From the NCBI GenBank assembly GCA_001915025.1, contig MNDR01000095.1, forward strand, positions 31,312-78,845: a DNA stretch of 47,534 nt, read 5' to 3'. The notes under the pieces were generated by a model. The model was not told the origin of the DNA, did no database searches, and saw only the letters and a program-made list of their open reading frames with translations. Both the position numbers and the translations under genes were made by a program. Within the stretch, counting starts at the first letter, position 1, and each line of letters starts with the position of its first letter. Shown here in pieces: positions 22,055 to 29,276 of the stretch. Origin of the DNA: Gemmatimonadetes bacterium 13_2_20CM_2_65_7. GTDB lineage: Bacteria > Gemmatimonadota > Gemmatimonadetes > Gemmatimonadales > GWC2-71-9.

Positions 22055-23248
22055 CTACGCTGGGGCGGCCGCGGGTAGACGTCCCTTGAGCTGCTGCGCG
22101 CGAACCGTGCCCTGCTCCGCGATCAACGCGCGGGCGGCGTCGACTTGGCCCCACGTATTCCAGAGCAACACTCCGCGGACGCGACCGGCCTTGAGATAGT
22201 AGATCACGCCCTCGCGGAACGGCTCTTTCCAATCGCTCATTGTTTCGAGCCGCGGGTCGAGCTCTCCGACTGCCTCGTACCCCAGTGCAAACAGATCGGA
22301 ATAAAAGAATGGCAGATGTGTGTAAGGCGTTTTGTCTCCGGCCATCGCGCGTCCCGCCGCCGCACCCATCGTATTGGCGTTGTCCTCATGCTCCACGCGC
22401 AGCCGCGCGCCGAGCGCGGAGTTGAAGAAGTTGGCGACGTCGCCGGCTGCGAAGACGTCGGATGCACTGGTCTGCAGGTGCTCATCCACGACGATCCCGT
22501 TGTCCACGCGCAGGCCCGCCTGAACGGCAAGCTCGACGTTGGGCTGGATGCCAATGCCGGCGACGACAGCATCCACGCGAACGTCGTCGCCGCGCGTCGT
22601 TTTCAAGACCAGCTCTTTGCCCGCGCGCGAGAGACTCGCCAAGGCCTGACCTGTCCGCACGTCCACGCCCTGTTCGCGGTAATAGCTCACGAGAAACTGC
22701 GATAGCTCGGTTGGAAAGACGCGCGCGCCGATGCCGTCCTCGGGGACCAGCATCACCACCTCACAACCCACGAGCCGCAGCGCCGCCGCGACTTCGGAGC
22801 CGATGAACCCCCCACCGAGCACGGCGAATCGCTTCTTGTCGTTCGCGAGCGCGCGCAGCTCCCGATAGTCGTCGAACGTCCGGTAGTAGATGATCTTGTC
22901 GGTGTCGATCGGAAGGCGTCGCGGCGTGCCTCCAGTAGCGAGCAACACCTTGCGGTAGGAAATCCCCTCGCCCTTGTCGTCGGTCACGGTCTTGGCACGT
23001 GGATCGAGCGCGGTCGCGCGCCGCCCGAGACGAAGATCGATGCCGAGTTTGTCCGTTCCCTTCCAGATGCTGGACTCCGGCTCACCCTTCCAGAGAGCCT
23101 TGGACAGTGGGGGACGCGCGTAGGGTGGATGCCGTTCGGCGGAGATGAGGCCGATCGTGCCGCTTGGATCGGACTTACGAATCGCGTCGGCGGCGGCAGC
23201 GGCGGTCATGCCGCCGCCGACAATCAGATAGTCAAACGCTCGCGGCAA
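22055..23248 (-). CDS. AIF/rubredoxin-reductase-like FAD/NAD oxidoreductase
   Basis: A 397-residue pyridine-nucleotide-disulfide-type flavoprotein with TTG start at 23248 behind AAGGGAC. The FAD fold is at the N-terminus (FDYLIVGGGMTAAAAADAIR), the NAD fold near residue 145 (FAVLGGGFIGSEVAAALRL), and the second FAD motif is TSASDVFAAGDVANFF. YARPPLSKALWKG is characteristic of the apoptosis-inducing-factor and ferredoxin-reductase branch. No disulfide active-site CxxxxC is present, so it passes electrons to a partner protein. It is the last gene of a four-gene unit with a diheme cytochrome 2 bp upstream, which suggests electron transfer to or from these exported proteins. It has no signal peptide and should be cytoplasmic. 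Confidence 0.85.
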   Translation of the reverse strand: MPRAFDYLIVGGGMTAAAAADAIRKSDPSGTIGLISAERHPPYARPPLSKALWKGEPESSIWKGTDKLGIDLRLGRRATALDPRAKTVTDDKGEGISYRKVLLATGGTPRRLPIDTDKIIYYRTFDDYRELRALANDKKRFAVLGGGFIGSEVAAALRLVGCEVVMLVPEDGIGARVFPTELSQFLVSYYREQGVDVRTGQALASLSRAGKELVLKTTRGDDVRVDAVVAGIGIQPNVELAVQAGLRVDNGIVVDEHLQTSASDVFAAGDVANFFNSALGARLRVEHEDNANTMGAAAGRAMAGDKTPYTHLPFFYSDLFALGYEAVGELDPRLETMSDWKEPFREGVIYYLKAGRVRGVLLWNTWGQVDAARALIAEQGTVRAQQLKGRLPAAAPA

Positions 23249-23250
23249 CG

Positions 23251-24567
23251 TTACAGTCCCTTCAAGTACTCGACGAGGTCCAGTTTCTCTCGCTCGGTCA
23301 GTCCCAACCTTCGCAACGTGTTGTAGTGGTTGACCACGTCGATCAGTGTAGCGAATCGGCCGTCATGATAGAAGCCGCCCGTTTGGTGAGACCAGAGGCC
23401 CGCGAGCGGCGCGGTCCGGTACATCCCGGTGGGTGAACGACTGGCCTGGAACGCGTCGACACCGACTTCCGCCGGCGCATGCAGGTTGTTGCCCGGCTCC
23501 GTGAACAGCGGCGGCACATGACAGGTGGCGCAGCGCGCCTTGCCATCGAACAGCATCTTTCCCCGCTCGAACGCGGCCCGGTCGAACGACCCTTCCGGAG
23601 GCGTCGGCGCGGGGATCGAGAGCTGGTAGAAGTGCAGCGCGGCAAGCGTTGGCGACAGCCGGTCCGGGGTGCCGCGTGTGTTATGAGAGCCGCTCTTCGC
23701 GGCGACCGGGTATTGAGCGCGCCGGCTGAGCCGCGCATCGAAAAACGTGCCCGAGCCATGCATCTCCGTCGCGCCGACGTACGCGTTCCAATACGTCACC
23801 GAGCCGAATCCCGTCCACGTGTGAAGGTTCACACCCGCGAGGCCAAAGGCGGGCGGAATCAACGTGCCCGCCTGTTTGCCGTCAGGCCGGAATGCCCTGC
23901 CGTCCTTGTCCAGCTCGGCGTCGAAGCGACCCGGACCCCAGCTCGCGAACACTTTCTTGACCGTCGCGACGTCGACGCCGAGCAGGTCCGTAAACGGTCT
24001 AAGGTTCGGCGACAGCGACACGATCGCGCCAACGTTCAAGTCGCGATTGGCCCAGCCGTCCCGTCGGTGTCCGATCCCGGGCGCAAAGACATCGTCCACG
24101 TTCGAGTGGCAGAATGCGCACTGAATGCCGATCGACTTGATGGTGCCATCAGCGTTAAAGAAGCCCGTGACGCCGACGACTGCATTGAGCTTGAGCAGCG
24201 CGAGCGTCGTCGCCGGGTCGTCCAGATTCACCTGTCCAGCTTTGAGCTGCTCCTGGAGCGCAGCAGGAATCGCATCGAGATCGACTTTGAGGCCGACGCT
24301 CAATGCGGTCTTGGGGCTCACACCGGGCCCGATGCCGCCATTGCGTTCGCCGGCAATCGCCTTGTGGAGCTGCAGTGCATCGCCCCAGAACGCCTCGTCG
24401 CCGAACGTGTCGAAGCGGAAAGTCTGTCGCCCGTCGACGATCATGCGATCGGCATTCGCTTCGATGACGCGGTCGAATGCGGTCGCGGGGCGTACGACGG
24501 TATGCCAGGCAGCCACTGTGAGAACACCGAGTCCGAGGCAGGCGACAACTGCGAAAGAGAACCGCAT
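23251..24567 (-). CDS. exported diheme cytochrome c (peroxidase-like)
   Basis: A 438-residue protein with an N-terminal signal anchor (FSFAVVACLGLGVLTVAAW). Two CXXCH heme sites are visible: CAFCH near residue 150 and CATCH near residue 344. The C-terminal part (LFDGKARCATCHVPPLFTE, then RTAPLAGLWSHQTGGFYHDG and TLIDVVNHYN) resembles the second heme domain of diheme cytochrome c peroxidases and MauG-like proteins. The central region (LIPPAFGLAGVNLHTWTGFG) is less familiar. It works in the periplasm; peroxidase, thiol oxidase and electron-transfer roles all remain possible. It follows the cupredoxin gene by 4 bp and precedes the flavoprotein by 2 bp. Confidence 0.85.
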   Translation of the reverse strand: MRFSFAVVACLGLGVLTVAAWHTVVRPATAFDRVIEANADRMIVDGRQTFRFDTFGDEAFWGDALQLHKAIAGERNGGIGPGVSPKTALSVGLKVDLDAIPAALQEQLKAGQVNLDDPATTLALLKLNAVVGVTGFFNADGTIKSIGIQCAFCHSNVDDVFAPGIGHRRDGWANRDLNVGAIVSLSPNLRPFTDLLGVDVATVKKVFASWGPGRFDAELDKDGRAFRPDGKQAGTLIPPAFGLAGVNLHTWTGFGSVTYWNAYVGATEMHGSGTFFDARLSRRAQYPVAAKSGSHNTRGTPDRLSPTLAALHFYQLSIPAPTPPEGSFDRAAFERGKMLFDGKARCATCHVPPLFTEPGNNLHAPAEVGVDAFQASRSPTGMYRTAPLAGLWSHQTGGFYHDGRFATLIDVVNHYNTLRRLGLTEREKLDLVEYLKGL

Positions 24568-24571
24568 ACGG

Positions 24572-24901
24572 TCACTCCCTTCCGATAATCAGCAGGCCCT
24601 TCATGGTGGGGTGCAGCGAGCAGGTGTACGGCGCTCGACCGGCGCGGCGCGGGACGTAACGGCCGGAATCGCCCTGTTGCAGCTGACCGCTGTCCCACTT
24701 GCGACGGCCGCTCCCCGTGGCCGTGTGCGGCACGATGTCGTGGTTGATCCAGACGACCGTGTCCCCCACGCTCACGTTCAGCGACGCCGGATGAAATGCC
24801 ATTCCATGGATTTCGATGATGTGTGTGCGCGATGGCCCGTACCTTCCACCCCCCGCAGCGAACACTGCGAGGGGCAGAACGATGGCGAAACGGCCGATCA
24901 C
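24572..24901 (-). CDS. small cupredoxin-like copper protein
   Basis: A 109-residue exported protein with a short N-terminal hydrophobic signal. It has the plastocyanin-like fold: HGMAFHPASLNVSVGDTVVW, then HDIVPHTAT with the first His ligand, and YTCSLHPTMKGLLII with Cys, His and Met ligands. These are the four type-1 copper ligands in the usual order. It should be a soluble or loosely anchored periplasmic electron carrier. Its ATG overlaps the DUF4142 stop (ATGA at 24898-24901), and the diheme cytochrome follows. Copper carrier beside cytochrome suggests a small electron-transfer chain. Family call is firm. Confidence 0.88.
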   Translation of the reverse strand: MIGRFAIVLPLAVFAAGGGRYGPSRTHIIEIHGMAFHPASLNVSVGDTVVWINHDIVPHTATGSGRRKWDSGQLQQGDSGRYVPRRAGRAPYTCSLHPTMKGLLIIGRE

Positions 24902-25452
24902 TTCAGTCTCGCGCGAAGAGCTTTCGCAAGCTCGAGGTGCGTGGCCACGGCGGGCCGCACATTCTGCAGCAGCGTCTTCAGCTCCGCGTTGTCGGTCGTC
25001 GGAATCAGCACCTTGTCGATCGCATCGAGGACAGCCTGGTGATACGCGATCTCGCGGTCCATGTAGGCGCGGTCGAACGCGGCTCCGTGCAGCGGCTCGA
25101 GCTTCTTGCGCGCATCGGCCGCCGCAGTCTGCAGCGATTGGCTGACGGCGTTGTCCTTTGGGGTGACTCCCAGCTTGCCCGCCAGCGCCGCCGCCTGCGC
25201 GTTCACGGCTGTATGGTCGGTGATCATTGTGGCCGCGAACTGTTTGACGCCCGCATTGTGCGTGCGCGTCTGCGCGAATTTCGCCGCGTTGATATCGATG
25301 TTGTTCGCCGTGACGGCGACATGGGCAACTTCGGGATCAGACAGATCGGGCGCAGCCGCCGGAGCTGGTGGGACCGCCTGCGCGTGCAGCGCTGCGGCGA
25401 ACACGAGCGGAACGGCGATGAGAGACATGTCATGAAGTCGAGCTCGTGACAT
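24898..25452 (-). CDS. DUF4142 exported four-helix protein
   Basis: A 184-residue protein with a signal peptide (LIAVPLVFAAALHAQA) and a DUF4142 domain. This family has a ferritin-like helical bundle with conserved His: NAAKFAQTRTHNAGVKQFAA, MITDHTAVNAQA, and FDRAYMDREIAYHQAVLDAI near residue 125. The function of DUF4142 is not established; a metal or redox role is often guessed. ATG 25452 has a strong ribosome-binding site (GGAGG). It is the first gene of the four-gene redox unit, and its upstream region holds the palindrome shared with the divergent regulator. Confidence 0.85.
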   Translation of the reverse strand: MSRARLHDMSLIAVPLVFAAALHAQAVPPAPAAAPDLSDPEVAHVAVTANNIDINAAKFAQTRTHNAGVKQFAATMITDHTAVNAQAAALAGKLGVTPKDNAVSQSLQTAAADARKKLEPLHGAAFDRAYMDREIAYHQAVLDAIDKVLIPTTDNAELKTLLQNVRPAVATHLELAKALRARLK

Positions 25453-25515
25453 CGCTACCTCCGGAAAGGGGGTTGGAGAGTTCAGTATTGGCGAAGCTGC
25501 CTATCTAATCCCACT

Positions 25516-25546
25516 TTGTCAAGTAATTGCTGTGATTACTAGACAA
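25516..25546. promoter_or_regulatory. 12-bp inverted repeat, candidate operator
   Basis: TTGTCAAGTAAT (25516-25527) and ATTACTAGACAA (25535-25546) are inverted repeats matching 11 of 12 positions around a 7-bp spacer. They lie midway between the divergent DUF4142 operon (start 25452) and the SufR-like regulator (start 25574), in an AT-rich stretch of an otherwise GC-rich window. The regulator probably binds here and controls both directions. Sequence is direct; function inferred. Confidence 0.65.
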
Positions 25547-25573
25547 TCCAACGGTTTAGGGCTATTTTGGGGC

Positions 25574-26200
25574 ATGACGAACTCGCGCGCGACGTTGACC
25601 GGCGAGACGCAGAGCAAGTTACTCGGCCTGCTCCGCCGCTCCCGTCAGACGATCACCGGCCTCGCCAAGGCGCTGGGACTCACGGACAACGCCGTGCGCC
25701 TGCACATCTCCGCGCTCCGACGCGACGGGTTCGTCGAGGACGTCGGGACGATGCGTGATACCGGTGGCAAACCGGCCCGCCTCTACGGCCTCAGTCGCGA
25801 AGGGGAGGAGTTGTTCCCAAAGGCCTACGCGCAGGTGCTCCAGGCGCTTGTGGAAGAGAGCCTACGCCGCGACGGACGCGAGCGCACGGTTGAGCTGCTT
25901 CGGGCGATTGGCGGTCGCCTGGCGGCGGGCGCACCACGTGATGGCGACGTGAAGCAGCGTGTCCAAGCGGCCGCCGCAGTGTTCCGCGGCTTGGGCGCTG
26001 ACGTTGAAATTCAGCGCACAAGCGAAGGGTGGCGACTCCGCGGACATGGCTGTCCTCTGGCCGCAGTGTCAGCGGAAACGCCGGAGGTCTGCGAGTTGGG
26101 GAAAGCGCTGGTGGAAGAGATTACCGGTGCGAGCGTGACCGAATGCTGCGAGCGCGGTGAAGGCGACAATCCTCGTTGCACATTTGCAATCGCAGGTTAG
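25574..26200 (+). CDS. SufR-like winged-helix regulator with C-terminal Cys cluster
   Basis: A 208-residue regulator. ATG 25574 follows GGGG; a GTG at 25532 would place the start inside the palindrome and is less likely. The N-terminal winged helix (LLGLLRRSRQTITGLAKALG, then TDNAVRLHISALRRDGFVED) resembles the ArsR/SufR group. The C-terminal part has Cys in CPLAAVSAETPEVC (CX12C), then CC and a final C in NPRCTFAI. This matches the layout of iron-sulfur-binding regulators such as SufR, though the later spacings differ from SufR itself. It probably senses redox or iron-sulfur status and controls the divergent cupredoxin/cytochrome operon. Its stop overlaps the MATE gene's stop (convergent). 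Confidence 0.8.
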   Translation: MTNSRATLTGETQSKLLGLLRRSRQTITGLAKALGLTDNAVRLHISALRRDGFVEDVGTMRDTGGKPARLYGLSREGEELFPKAYAQVLQALVEESLRRDGRERTVELLRAIGGRLAAGAPRDGDVKQRVQAAAAVFRGLGADVEIQRTSEGWRLRGHGCPLAAVSAETPEVCELGKALVEEITGASVTECCERGEGDNPRCTFAIAG

Positions 26201-27609
26201 CTGCTCCCAATACTCACGGCAATGGTGCGCCACTTCCCCTGACGGAAGCGCAGCACGCTCAGCACGCAACGCGTCACATGCCCGGCGAGAATGGCGAGCC
26301 AGATGTCGATCGCGTCGAGCTTCCCCATTTGCTGGATTACGAAACAGATCCCGAGCGGCACGAGGATCTGCGAGATCATCGAGATGTACAGCGGACTCTT
26401 CGTATCTCCGGTCCCTTGCATCCCCCCCGTGTAGGACAGCGCCACGGTGACGAACAACCCGGAAACGCTGAGCACATGGAGAAGTTGGACACCGATGTTC
26501 ACGACGACCGGGTCGTGCATTCCGAACACGGCGAGCAACTGCCGTGGCAGGAACAAGAAGAACAGTCCCACGAACGCCGCCACCGACAATCCGTAGCGCG
26601 CCGCGACATGAACCGCTTGCGCCGAGCGATCCGGATGGCCGGCGCCGAGGTTTTGCCCCGCCACCGCGGCCGCCGATCCCATCAAACCGACCGACGTCCA
26701 CGTGATGAGCGAAAACAGCTCCGTGTAGGAGACCGCGAATGCACCTTGCGCGGCCGCGCTCTGTGCCAACGAGCCAATGAACGACAGCATCAAGACGCCG
26801 CCGATGTTCATCGCAATGCCCTGAATGCCGGTCGGCAGTCCGAAACGGAACAGCTCTTTGATGATGGTCCAATCGGGGCCGTGTCCTCGTCCTTTCGGGA
26901 ACGCCACGACCCATCCTCCACTCCACAACTTCCAGAGCGCGTAGACGGCGATCAGTCCTGATGTGATGCACGTCCCCATCGCCGAGCCGCGCGTGCCGAA
27001 CGCCGGAATCGGGCCGAGGCCGCGAATCAGCATCACGTTCAGCACGAGGTTCACGACGGTCATCACGATGCCCAGCTGCATCGGCGTGCGCGCGTCTCCC
27101 GCCGAGCGGAGCGCGCCGCCCAGCATGAAGAAGATCAACATGCCACTCGAGAATCCGAACAAGATGCGCAGGTAGGGCATCGCTTCGGCTTTCACGGCCG
27201 GAGCGGCATTCACGACATCGAGCAACCACGGCGTCGCGAAATACCCGAGCGGCGCCATGATGCCGAGCGAGATCCCGATCGCGGTGAGAAACGCCTGGTA
27301 CACGACACGGTCGACCTTCTCCGCATCTCCGGCGCCGGCGAAGCGGGCCACCAGCACACTCATTCCCGAGAACAGCGATGAAATGAAAATGATGACGACG
27401 AGAAAGATCTGCCAGCTGACACCGATCGCGGCGTTCGCCTTGTAGCCCACGAGATTGCCGACGAGCACGTGATCGACGATGCCCTGAAGGCCGCCAATGG
27501 CATTCGTGAGCATCGTCGGCCAAGCGATTTTCCAAACGGCTTGCTGAAGTGGGCCTTCGACGATGGACCGGTCGTAGCGAGGCTGCGCCGGTGCCGCAAC
27601 GTCCGTCAT
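26197..27609 (-). CDS. MATE-family multidrug efflux transporter
   Basis: A 470-residue integral membrane protein with about 12 hydrophobic helices in two similar halves, the standard MATE size. Recognisable parts are WKIAWPTMLTNAIGGLQGIV with VDHVLVGNLVG, RSAGDARTPMQLGIVMTVVN in the middle, GLPTGIQGIAMNIGGV at the start of the second half, and TGGMQGTGDTKSPLYISMIS. It exports drugs or metabolites using Na+ or H+. Its ATG lies directly after the DoxX stop, so it closes the DGPF-ECF42-DoxX unit. It ends convergently against the SufR-like gene with overlapping stop codons. Substrate unknown. Confidence 0.92.
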   Translation of the reverse strand: MTDVAAPAQPRYDRSIVEGPLQQAVWKIAWPTMLTNAIGGLQGIVDHVLVGNLVGYKANAAIGVSWQIFLVVIIFISSLFSGMSVLVARFAGAGDAEKVDRVVYQAFLTAIGISLGIMAPLGYFATPWLLDVVNAAPAVKAEAMPYLRILFGFSSGMLIFFMLGGALRSAGDARTPMQLGIVMTVVNLVLNVMLIRGLGPIPAFGTRGSAMGTCITSGLIAVYALWKLWSGGWVVAFPKGRGHGPDWTIIKELFRFGLPTGIQGIAMNIGGVLMLSFIGSLAQSAAAQGAFAVSYTELFSLITWTSVGLMGSAAAVAGQNLGAGHPDRSAQAVHVAARYGLSVAAFVGLFFLFLPRQLLAVFGMHDPVVVNIGVQLLHVLSVSGLFVTVALSYTGGMQGTGDTKSPLYISMISQILVPLGICFVIQQMGKLDAIDIWLAILAGHVTRCVLSVLRFRQGKWRTIAVSIGSS

Positions 27610-28023
27610 CTAGCTGACCGGAGCAACGTGCTTCTGTCGCGCGACGTATGCATCGAGGCTCCACGGTCCGCCTCCGGCGGCCGAGTAATAAAGGAAGGTG
27701 AAGCAGTAGAACACGGCTGGTGCGCCCTGATTCAGGAGAGGCCAGAAGCCGTGTCCCGCATGTCCGATGAAATAGGCGATGGCCATTTCGCCCGAGAGAA
27801 TGAACGCCACCGGTCGCGTGAACAGCCCGAAGAAAAAAAACGTCCCGCCGATCACTTCGATGACGCCGGCGAACCAGACCAACGAGCCGACCGGCGCCGT
27901 ACCGCCGCCCGGCAGGATCGCCGCCGGGAACGCGAACCATTTGGCTGAGCCGACCTGGACGAACAGAAACGCGATCACCACCCTCAGCACGCTGAGCAGC
28001 TGCGGCGCCCACTCCTTTTTCAC
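27610..28023 (-). CDS. DoxX-family membrane protein
   Basis: A 137-residue protein with four predicted helices. LSVLRVVIAFLFVQVGSAKW is the DoxX opening; SLVWFAGVIEVIGGTFFFFG and FTRPVAFILSGEMAIAYFIG follow, and the C-terminus has NQGAPAVFYCFTFLYYSAA. DoxX proteins are small quinone- or stress-related membrane proteins whose activity is mostly unproven. The GTG start at 28023 overlaps the sigma-factor stop (GTGA), and the stop abuts the MATE start, so it is translated as part of the ECF42 unit. Confidence 0.88.
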   Translation of the reverse strand: MKKEWAPQLLSVLRVVIAFLFVQVGSAKWFAFPAAILPGGGTAPVGSLVWFAGVIEVIGGTFFFFGLFTRPVAFILSGEMAIAYFIGHAGHGFWPLLNQGAPAVFYCFTFLYYSAAGGGPWSLDAYVARQKHVAPVS

Positions 28024-29276
28024 AAGGCCTCCAATCGCTTGAGCAGCAGATCGCGCTCACGGACGTTTTGGGTAAGGGCTGCGGCGCGCTGGAGCTCCGC
28101 GCGGGCTTCCTCGAAACGGCCGAGCTTCGCGAGCAGATCCCCGCGCACGCTCGGCAGCAGATGATAACCCTCGAGCGCGGGATCGGCTCGCAGCGTATCG
28201 ATCACCTCGAGGCCGGCGGCCGGACCGAACGCCATCCCCAGCGCCACCGCGCGATTGAGCTCCACGACCGGGGACGGCAGCAATTGCCCGAGCGCGTCAT
28301 ACAAGGCGACGATGCGGGTCCAGTCGGTTTCGTCGGGCGTGTGCGCTCGCGCATGACAGGCGGCGACGGCTGCCTGAAGCGCGTAGATCCCATATGCGCC
28401 ACCCAGCGCTTCCACACGCTCCAGTGCCGCAAGGCCTCGACCAATCAAGAGATGATCCCACCGGCCGCGGTCCTGCTGTAGCAACAGGATCGCCTCACCC
28501 TGCGGCCCCACGCGCGCCCGTATCCGCGACGCCTGAATCTCCATCAGCGCGACGAGGCCGTGCACCTCCGGCTCTGTCGGCGCGAGCTCGGCGAGGATGC
28601 GGCCCAACCGCAGCGCGTCTTCGCAGAGGGCCGGCCGCACCCAGTCCTCACCCGCTGTCGCCGAGTAACCTTCATTGAAGATGAGATAGATGACTTCGAG
28701 CACCGAGCCAAGCCGCGCAGTCAGCTCAGGTCCGCGCGGAACTTCGAAGGGCACGTGCGCCGCGGCGAGGGTCCGCTTTGCCCGCACGATCCGTTGCTGA
28801 ATCGTCGCCTTGGGCACTAGAAAGGCGCGCGCGATTTCTTCTGTCGTCAGTCCGCCCAGGAGGCGTAGTGTCAGGGCCACGCGCGCCTCGGTGGAAAGCA
28901 CCGGGTGACACGCGGTAAAGATGAGGCTCAGCAGATCATCACCCACGTCATCATCGATCGCCGCCGCGAGGTCGGGCTCGGGACTGACTTGCCTGGCTTC
29001 GAGCTCGCGGGCCACGTGCGCGTGCTTCTGGTCCTGCATCTTGCGGCGGCGCAGCAGGTCGATGGCGCGATGTTTCGCGGTCGCCATGAGCCACGCGCCC
29101 GGATTCTCCGGCACGCCCGTCTTCGGCCATTGCTCCAGCGCGATGACGAGCGCGTCCTGCGCGAGATCTTCCGCGATGCCGACGTCGCCGACGAGCCGCG
29201 CCAGGCCGGCGATGAGTCTGGCGGATTCGATCCGCCAGACTGCATCGATCGCTTCAGCAGCCTTGTTCGGGGGCAT
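28020..29276 (-). CDS. ECF sigma factor with C-terminal TPR-like extension (ECF42 type)
   Basis: A 418-residue RNA polymerase sigma factor, twice the usual ECF length. Region 2 is seen as DLAQDALVIALEQWPKTGVP and AWLMATAKHRAIDLLRRRK. Region 4 is seen as LTLRLLGGLTTEEIARAFLV with PKATIQQRIVRAKRTL. The remaining 230 residues form a helical extension with IYLIFNEGYSATAGEDW and repeats ending in RFEEARAELQRAAALT. This architecture, next to DGPF proteins, defines group ECF42, in which the extension rather than an anti-sigma factor controls activity. Two DGPF genes lie immediately upstream; the second overlaps this start by 23 nt. The ATG at 29276 is in frame with the family's normal N-terminus. 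Confidence 0.92.
   Translation of the reverse strand: MPPNKAAEAIDAVWRIESARLIAGLARLVGDVGIAEDLAQDALVIALEQWPKTGVPENPGAWLMATAKHRAIDLLRRRKMQDQKHAHVARELEARQVSPEPDLAAAIDDDVGDDLLSLIFTACHPVLSTEARVALTLRLLGGLTTEEIARAFLVPKATIQQRIVRAKRTLAAAHVPFEVPRGPELTARLGSVLEVIYLIFNEGYSATAGEDWVRPALCEDALRLGRILAELAPTEPEVHGLVALMEIQASRIRARVGPQGEAILLLQQDRGRWDHLLIGRGLAALERVEALGGAYGIYALQAAVAACHARAHTPDETDWTRIVALYDALGQLLPSPVVELNRAVALGMAFGPAAGLEVIDTLRADPALEGYHLLPSVRGDLLAKLGRFEEARAELQRAAALTQNVRERDLLLKRLEAL

Follow-up and report, generated by a model that had tools for sequence, protein, structure and literature searches.

The window analysed here is a 47,534-nucleotide stretch of a soil Gemmatimonadota genome (contig MNDR01000095.1, positions 31,312 to 78,845), and its subject is a locus at which genes for a DUF4142 protein, a cupredoxin, a diheme cytochrome and an AIF-like flavoprotein all lie on the minus strand, with a regulator gene on the plus strand. 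The genes and candidate control elements are as follows, in window coordinates.

24898-25452, minus: DUF4142 protein gene, 184 aa (Pfam PF13628, E 1.2e-36)
24572-24901, minus: amicyanin-like cupredoxin gene, 109 aa (Pfam Copper-bind, above cut-off)
23251-24567, minus: diheme cytochrome c gene, bacterial cytochrome c peroxidase (bCCP)/MauG superfamily (two CXXCH)
22055-23248, minus: AIF-like NAD(P)H/FAD oxidoreductase gene, TTG start (Pyr_redox_2; AIF_C, E 1.5e-15)
25574-26200, plus: winged helix-turn-helix (wHTH) module regulator gene, 208 aa (SufR TIGR02702, E 8e-11, below cut-off; HTH_5)
25516-25546, no strand: operator-like palindrome TTGTCAAGTAATTGCTGTGATTACTAGACAA (palindrome scan)
25540-25568, plus: regulator promoter-like site TAGACA-17-TATTTT (promoter scan, 1 found against 0.6 expected by chance)
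25517-25522, minus: consensus -35 TTGACA toward the DUF4142 operon, within the left palindrome arm (inspection)

A sequence-only reading had described four genes with gaps of at most 4 bp and a divergent regulator, and we confirm its coordinates and layout. The cupredoxin gene overlaps the DUF4142 gene by 4 bp (GTGA), the cupredoxin/cytochrome and cytochrome/AIF gaps are 4 and 2 bp, and a Shine-Dalgarno-like AAGGGA lies upstream of both the cytochrome and the AIF gene. The most likely start of the regulator is ATG 25574 and not GTG 25532, since a TGA interrupts the extension between the two in four of six same-genus relatives. A terminator scan found none.

A profile of the regulator was searched over 395 genomes of the phylum, which separated a high-scoring group from a group near 110-120 bits; 66 loci of the high group were examined (63 reached via the regulator and 3 via the cytochrome). 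At the 54 Gemmatimonadota loci with more than 2.5 kb of divergent flank, counting genes within 3.5 kb, every regulator (54/54) has a member of one or more of the four families divergent from it. DUF4142 is present at 45 of them: alone at 22, with the cupredoxin at 10, with the cytochrome at 6, with the AIF gene at 5 and in other combinations at 2. Where it is missing, the cytochrome (6 loci) or the AIF gene (3 loci) stands alone. None of the 16 low-group paralog loci has any of the four module genes. Counted by hand from the side of the partners, 18 of the 36 strong DUF4142 genes that 61 genomes contain, and about 16 of 39 cytochrome matches in a 200-genome sample, adjoin the regulator. Presence changes on the regulator tree 12 times for the cytochrome, 10 for AIF, 8 for DUF4142 and 3 for the cupredoxin, and hence the partners have met several times; an AIF gene adjoining the cytochrome recurs at loci L063, L067 and L068. 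The cultured Gemmatirosa kalamazoonensis KBS708 appears to carry three module loci, one of them on plasmid 2 (L177, L223, L224, L241).

The intergenic region common to the DUF4142 operon and the divergent regulator contains the 31-bp palindrome, in which 11 of 12 arm positions are complementary around a 7-bp spacer and of which none is expected by chance in the window. It has one copy in its own genome and one in each of the six other same-genus genomes that carry the regulator, and was not found in the three without it. Allowing at most one mismatch, GTCAA-N8-TTGAC or GTCAA-N17-T(A/G/T)GAC is found upstream of the regulator at 53 of 67 orthologous loci, compared with 0.85 expected from shuffles. 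The right arm of the window palindrome is the -35 of the regulator promoter-like site, and as this site ends 6 bp ahead of ATG 25574 the regulator transcript may be leaderless. No good -10 was recognised by inspection after the TTGACA facing DUF4142, which makes steric repression of both promoters a tentative proposal. The suf region of the window genome has no operator site within one mismatch. SufR operators have the form CAAC-N6-GTTG, and the palindromes upstream of the suf-linked paralogs L214 and L218 (GTCAAC-N6-GTTGAC) share it, being related to the module operator but different from it. A separate near-perfect palindrome, TTTGTCAAGTAGTTACTTGACAAA, lies at L226:3355-3380 (G014:C330), intergenic by TetR-like, MarR-like and exporter-like frames; no module gene was found nearby, and genome G014 has only a weak regulator homolog.

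The C-terminal domain of the regulator carries the series C160-x12-C173-x18-C192-x9-C202, all four cysteines of which are invariant in an alignment of 67 orthologs, and we infer that they hold an iron-sulfur (Fe-S) cluster. Three of them form a SufR-type triad, C160-x12-C173-x28-C202 (67/67), whose last spacing has a two-residue range across the orthologs. The low-score paralogs retain C160, C173 and C202 and have C198 in 10 of 14 alignment rows, and C192 appears in 1 of the 14, the row of the window sequence itself (0/13 among paralogs proper). Against the SufR model TIGR02702 the regulator scores 42.0 bits, below the curated equivalog cut-off of 178.8. A tree places its clade and the suf-linked SufR-type paralogs on two sides of one branch with support of 100/100; among those paralogs, L214 lies upstream of SufB and SufD (Pfam-verified) and two more are suf-linked by reading. 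Because its clade stands apart from them, we call the regulator, on its sequence, a SufR relative of a distinct clade and not SufR. The cysteine cluster of the proposed divergent SufR-like regulator is borne out and invariant, but the name SufR is not. Orthology with SufR was considered and ruled out by the sub-threshold score, the separate clade and the missing suf link. The suf genes of the window genome are on another contig than the module (G000:C63:27991-30799; L228, L229), where they follow a nucleotidyltransferase-like gene with no recognisable SufR between. In a relative, L207, a SufR-type gene occupies this position, and a loss of SufR in the window's genus is possible. The AlphaFold2 model of the regulator has a mean pLDDT of 90; Foldseek returned ArsR/MarR wHTH folds with it, and for the sensor domain gave no clear assignment, with BcsD first and the PoxR sensor domain weak.

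The DUF4142 protein is a member of its family (126 bits against PF13628, gathering cut-off 27) and has an apparent signal peptide. Its AlphaFold2 model (mean pLDDT 89) is a ferritin-like four-helix bundle, with CopM (5ffc) and DUF305 (3bt5) as the nearest folds in the PDB. The DUF4142 profile matches CopM at E 2e-4, and the score of 22.7 bits against the CopM/DUF305 family PF03713 lies below the gathering cut-off of 27, leaving a similarity of fold only. Residues D53, H80, E134, H138 and H172 are invariant in 53 sequences, and we infer that they form one metal site. In the cupredoxin, the type-1 blue copper ligands H59, C94, H97 and M100 are complete and invariant in 14 sequences; it matches amicyanin structures at E 1e-18 and the amicyanin model TIGR02657 at E 8e-8, below that model's cut-off.

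The cytochrome is of periplasmic type, with hemes at C150-H154 and C346-H350 that are both invariant in 90 sequences. Its Y415, present in 90/90, aligns with the Met column of bCCP structures (E 3e-8), the established axial Met of bCCP. A Tyr at the axial position is the state of MauG (Y294) and BthA (Y463) (PMC6405878). The two CXXCH hemes and the homologous C-terminal domain assign the protein, as far as its sequence can, to the bCCP/MauG superfamily. It is not to be named MauG, because it scores below threshold against both MauG TIGR03791 (32.5 bits, E 5e-8, cut-off 443.9) and Pfam CCP_MauG (17.5 bits, cut-off 25.6); no mau genes were recognised at the module locus. The AIF-like protein matches AIF and dioxygenase ferredoxin-reductase structures, and no signal peptide was seen in it. 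Several distant loci carry a Rieske-AIF fusion in its place (e.g. L067).

Six same-genus genomes have a complete regulator gene; in all of them it remains divergent from DUF4142 and the cupredoxin, and the AIF gene is downstream of the regulator. The cytochrome was not found at the module locus in five of them, and the sixth (L024) has one of a more distant subfamily in convergent orientation. Because these sister genomes arrange the AIF and cytochrome genes differently, the packed four-gene operon is probably a rearranged, lineage-specific form. The window cytochrome shares 82-83% identity with copies from other Gemmatimonadetes metagenome-assembled genomes (MAGs; organism names of MAG contigs follow the deposited records), which lie at loci without the module, 70-77% with copies from Acidobacteria, Rhizobiales and Betaproteobacteria, the first two of these groups at 71-77%, and 46-52% with those of its own order. 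Being closer to foreign and other-MAG copies than to those of its own order, it was probably acquired. Three same-genus genomes lack an intact regulator, a strong DUF4142 and the operator, all jointly. One of these, G006, retains nothing of the regulator gene but its 3' end (L041:7619-7759) beside a conserved MATE-DoxX-sigma block, and this remnant is a deletion scar of the module. In the window, the MATE, DoxX and long sigma-like genes (26197-29276) lie 3' of the regulator; their order is kept within the genus and is absent from the distant module loci examined.

Beyond Gemmatimonadota, the cytochrome, DUF4142 and cupredoxin occur together in Pseudolabrys, two Betaproteobacteria, one Gammaproteobacteria and one Chitinophagales record, and the Pseudolabrys locus also has extracytoplasmic function (ECF) sigma, Rieske-AIF and Crp/Fnr genes. 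A DUF4142-cupredoxin pair lies beside an ECF sigma gene on plasmids of Rhizobium, Paraburkholderia, Shinella, Mesorhizobium, Phyllobacterium and S. meliloti, and the ECF sigma proteins of these clusters are related to each other (26-63% identity). Judged by its neighbours, control of the pair in Proteobacteria falls to an ECF sigma factor or a Crp/Fnr protein. On plasmid p1 of Shinella zoogloeoides (L234:3156-7741), sigma, DUF4142 and cupredoxin genes stand between cbb3 oxidase genes and Crp/Fnr, nirK and NnrS genes, neighbours that hint at low oxygen or nitric oxide (NO).

Gene neighbourhoods across these lineages indicate that the recurrent module is real, that DUF4142 is its core partner and that its regulator is exchangeable. 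For the window, we favour with moderate confidence a locally controlled envelope copper/heme redox module under Fe-S-type repression. The cluster-loaded regulator would bind the palindrome and repress in both directions, and cluster loss or nitrosylation, caused by oxygen, peroxide, NO or iron shortage, would free the operator. The induced exported proteins would then act jointly, with DUF4142, whose fold is akin to that of CopM, as a binder of copper or another metal, the cupredoxin as electron carrier and the diheme enzyme as the partner that reacts with peroxide; NAD(P)H-derived electrons would come from the cytosol through the AIF-like protein. MauG and MbnH act on partner proteins, and in a comparable way peroxide-driven maturation or metal loading of DUF4142 or the cupredoxin might be the task of the MauG-like enzyme together with the AIF-like reductase, with DUF4142 as a widespread substrate or metal carrier switched by an Fe-S repressor in Gemmatimonadota or an ECF29 sigma factor in rhizobia; we regard this extension as rather unlikely.

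Several observations weigh against the proposed redox module. Only the window showed the four genes packed in one operon, cytochrome and AIF genes are minority partners (15/56 and 10/56 loci), 14 of the 67 regulator loci have no operator within one mismatch, and the surveyed loci are related, so that the counts are not independent trials. The four cysteines of the regulator could bind Zn, the putative DUF4142 metal site is deduced from conserved residues, and the resemblance to CopM is remote (12-16% identity). The AIF-like protein seems to be cytosolic and the other three exported, so that a direct AIF electron path is at most putative. Of the self-contained module for which the sequence-only reading had suggested a co-occurrence survey, the recurrence of the four genes and the regulator with a shared operator-like site holds, but the packed order is not general. 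That reading had also named two outcomes as damaging to it. One, a lack of operon conservation, applies to the exact gene order, which is lineage-specific and not kept in sister genomes; the other, binding of the regulator elsewhere only, is contradicted by the motif evidence, which predicts one genomic site, at the module locus.

The cysteines might instead bind metal directly, making the regulator a metal (zinc/copper) or redox-thiol sensor and the module a copper-stress response. A CopM-like DUF4142 and a cupredoxin do point to copper, CopM being a copper-resistance protein (PMC4335983), the regulator has an ArsR-type wHTH, and an AlphaFold model cannot show a cluster. However, the C-x12-C-x26/28-C spacing matches the SufR triad of Rv1460 (PMC6034842), a similar triad in ArnR holds a [4Fe-4S] cluster (PMC12343034), and none of the recurring neighbours looked like a copper exporter; a metal sensor is hence unlikely, although it keeps a real chance. 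The different arrangement in sister genomes and the probable acquisition of the cytochrome, read from its identities to foreign and own-order copies, would also fit a chance rearrangement in which the cytochrome and AIF genes landed 3' of a conserved DUF4142-cupredoxin pair with no shared function. This seems quite improbable, given that cytochromes of this family adjoin the regulator at 15 of 56 loci and accompany DUF4142-cupredoxin in four or more other lineages, and that AIF beside the cytochrome recurs at the three loci named above.

Very improbable, in our view, is a reading in which the regulator, as a SufR ortholog, acts in trans on Fe-S assembly and the redox genes are bystanders. The regulator does match the SufR model, and the suf locus of the window genome is without a recognisable cis SufR, which would leave room there for control in trans. 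Yet its clade is separate from the suf-linked paralogs (100/100), its fourth cysteine is shifted (C192 in 67/67 orthologs against 1/14 rows), and the genome contains a single copy of the long palindrome, with no site within one mismatch in the suf region; the module neighbours are conserved, which argues that they are not bystanders.

DUF4142 is common in bacteria but almost absent from the literature searched, in which no paper on its function was found. Recurrent partners across several phyla under different regulators now give it a first strong, testable functional context, and with a regulator of its own, one predicted operator site, the CopM-like fold and conserved copper/heme partners it becomes a problem accessible to experiment.

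Among known systems, CopM is a copper-resistance and copper-binding protein (PMC4335983), and CopM/DUF305 proteins share with DUF4142 the four-helix fold, weak sequence similarity and export. They differ in their separate Pfam family and 12-16% identity, and their metal ligands need not coincide. MauG, BthA and MbnH resemble the window cytochrome in their two c-hemes and, for MauG and BthA, in a second heme whose axial position is taken by Tyr (Y415 here), but the cytochrome is far below family cut-offs, has a longer N-terminal part and has no tryptophylquinone partner in sight. In M. tuberculosis, SufR (Rv1460) requires C203, C216 and C244, spaced C203-x12-C216-x27-C244 (PMC6034842), and in Corynebacterium the ArnR triad C179, C193 and C223 is the seat of an NO-reactive [4Fe-4S] cluster (PMC12343034). 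SufR (Synechocystis, Rv1460) and ArnR share with the module regulator a wHTH with a C-x12/13-C-x26-29-C triad and divergent or local targets; Rv1460 also shares the possible leaderless start, and the ArnR sensory domain is reported to resemble CATH 3.30.1380.20, the regulator model matching the PoxR sensor domain weakly. The regulator differs from them in falling below the SufR cut-off, in its separate clade, in the extra invariant C192 and in its predicted targets, copper/heme redox genes in place of suf or nar.

A further close system is the S. meliloti pSymB cluster rpoE8 (ECF29)-SMb20593-amcY, for which no RpoE8 target, signal or anti-sigma was found and which was called uncommon outside plant-nodulating bacteria (PMC6180224). 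The pSymB cluster in our survey fits the published one. It differs from the window in having a sigma factor where the window has a putative Fe-S-type repressor, and in having no diheme cytochrome or AIF gene adjacent in the stretch covered; conversely, the window sigma-like protein (28020-29276) gave no BLAST match to rpoE8-type proteins and does not count as an adjacent ECF29 factor. The two have in common DUF4142 followed by the cupredoxin, 44% and 41% identical to those of the window in the S. meliloti ml45 pSymB copy. The DUF4142-cupredoxin pair thus extends beyond nodulating bacteria, and the module offers a lead on the unexplained RpoE8-SMb20593-AmcY cluster in a genetically tractable organism.

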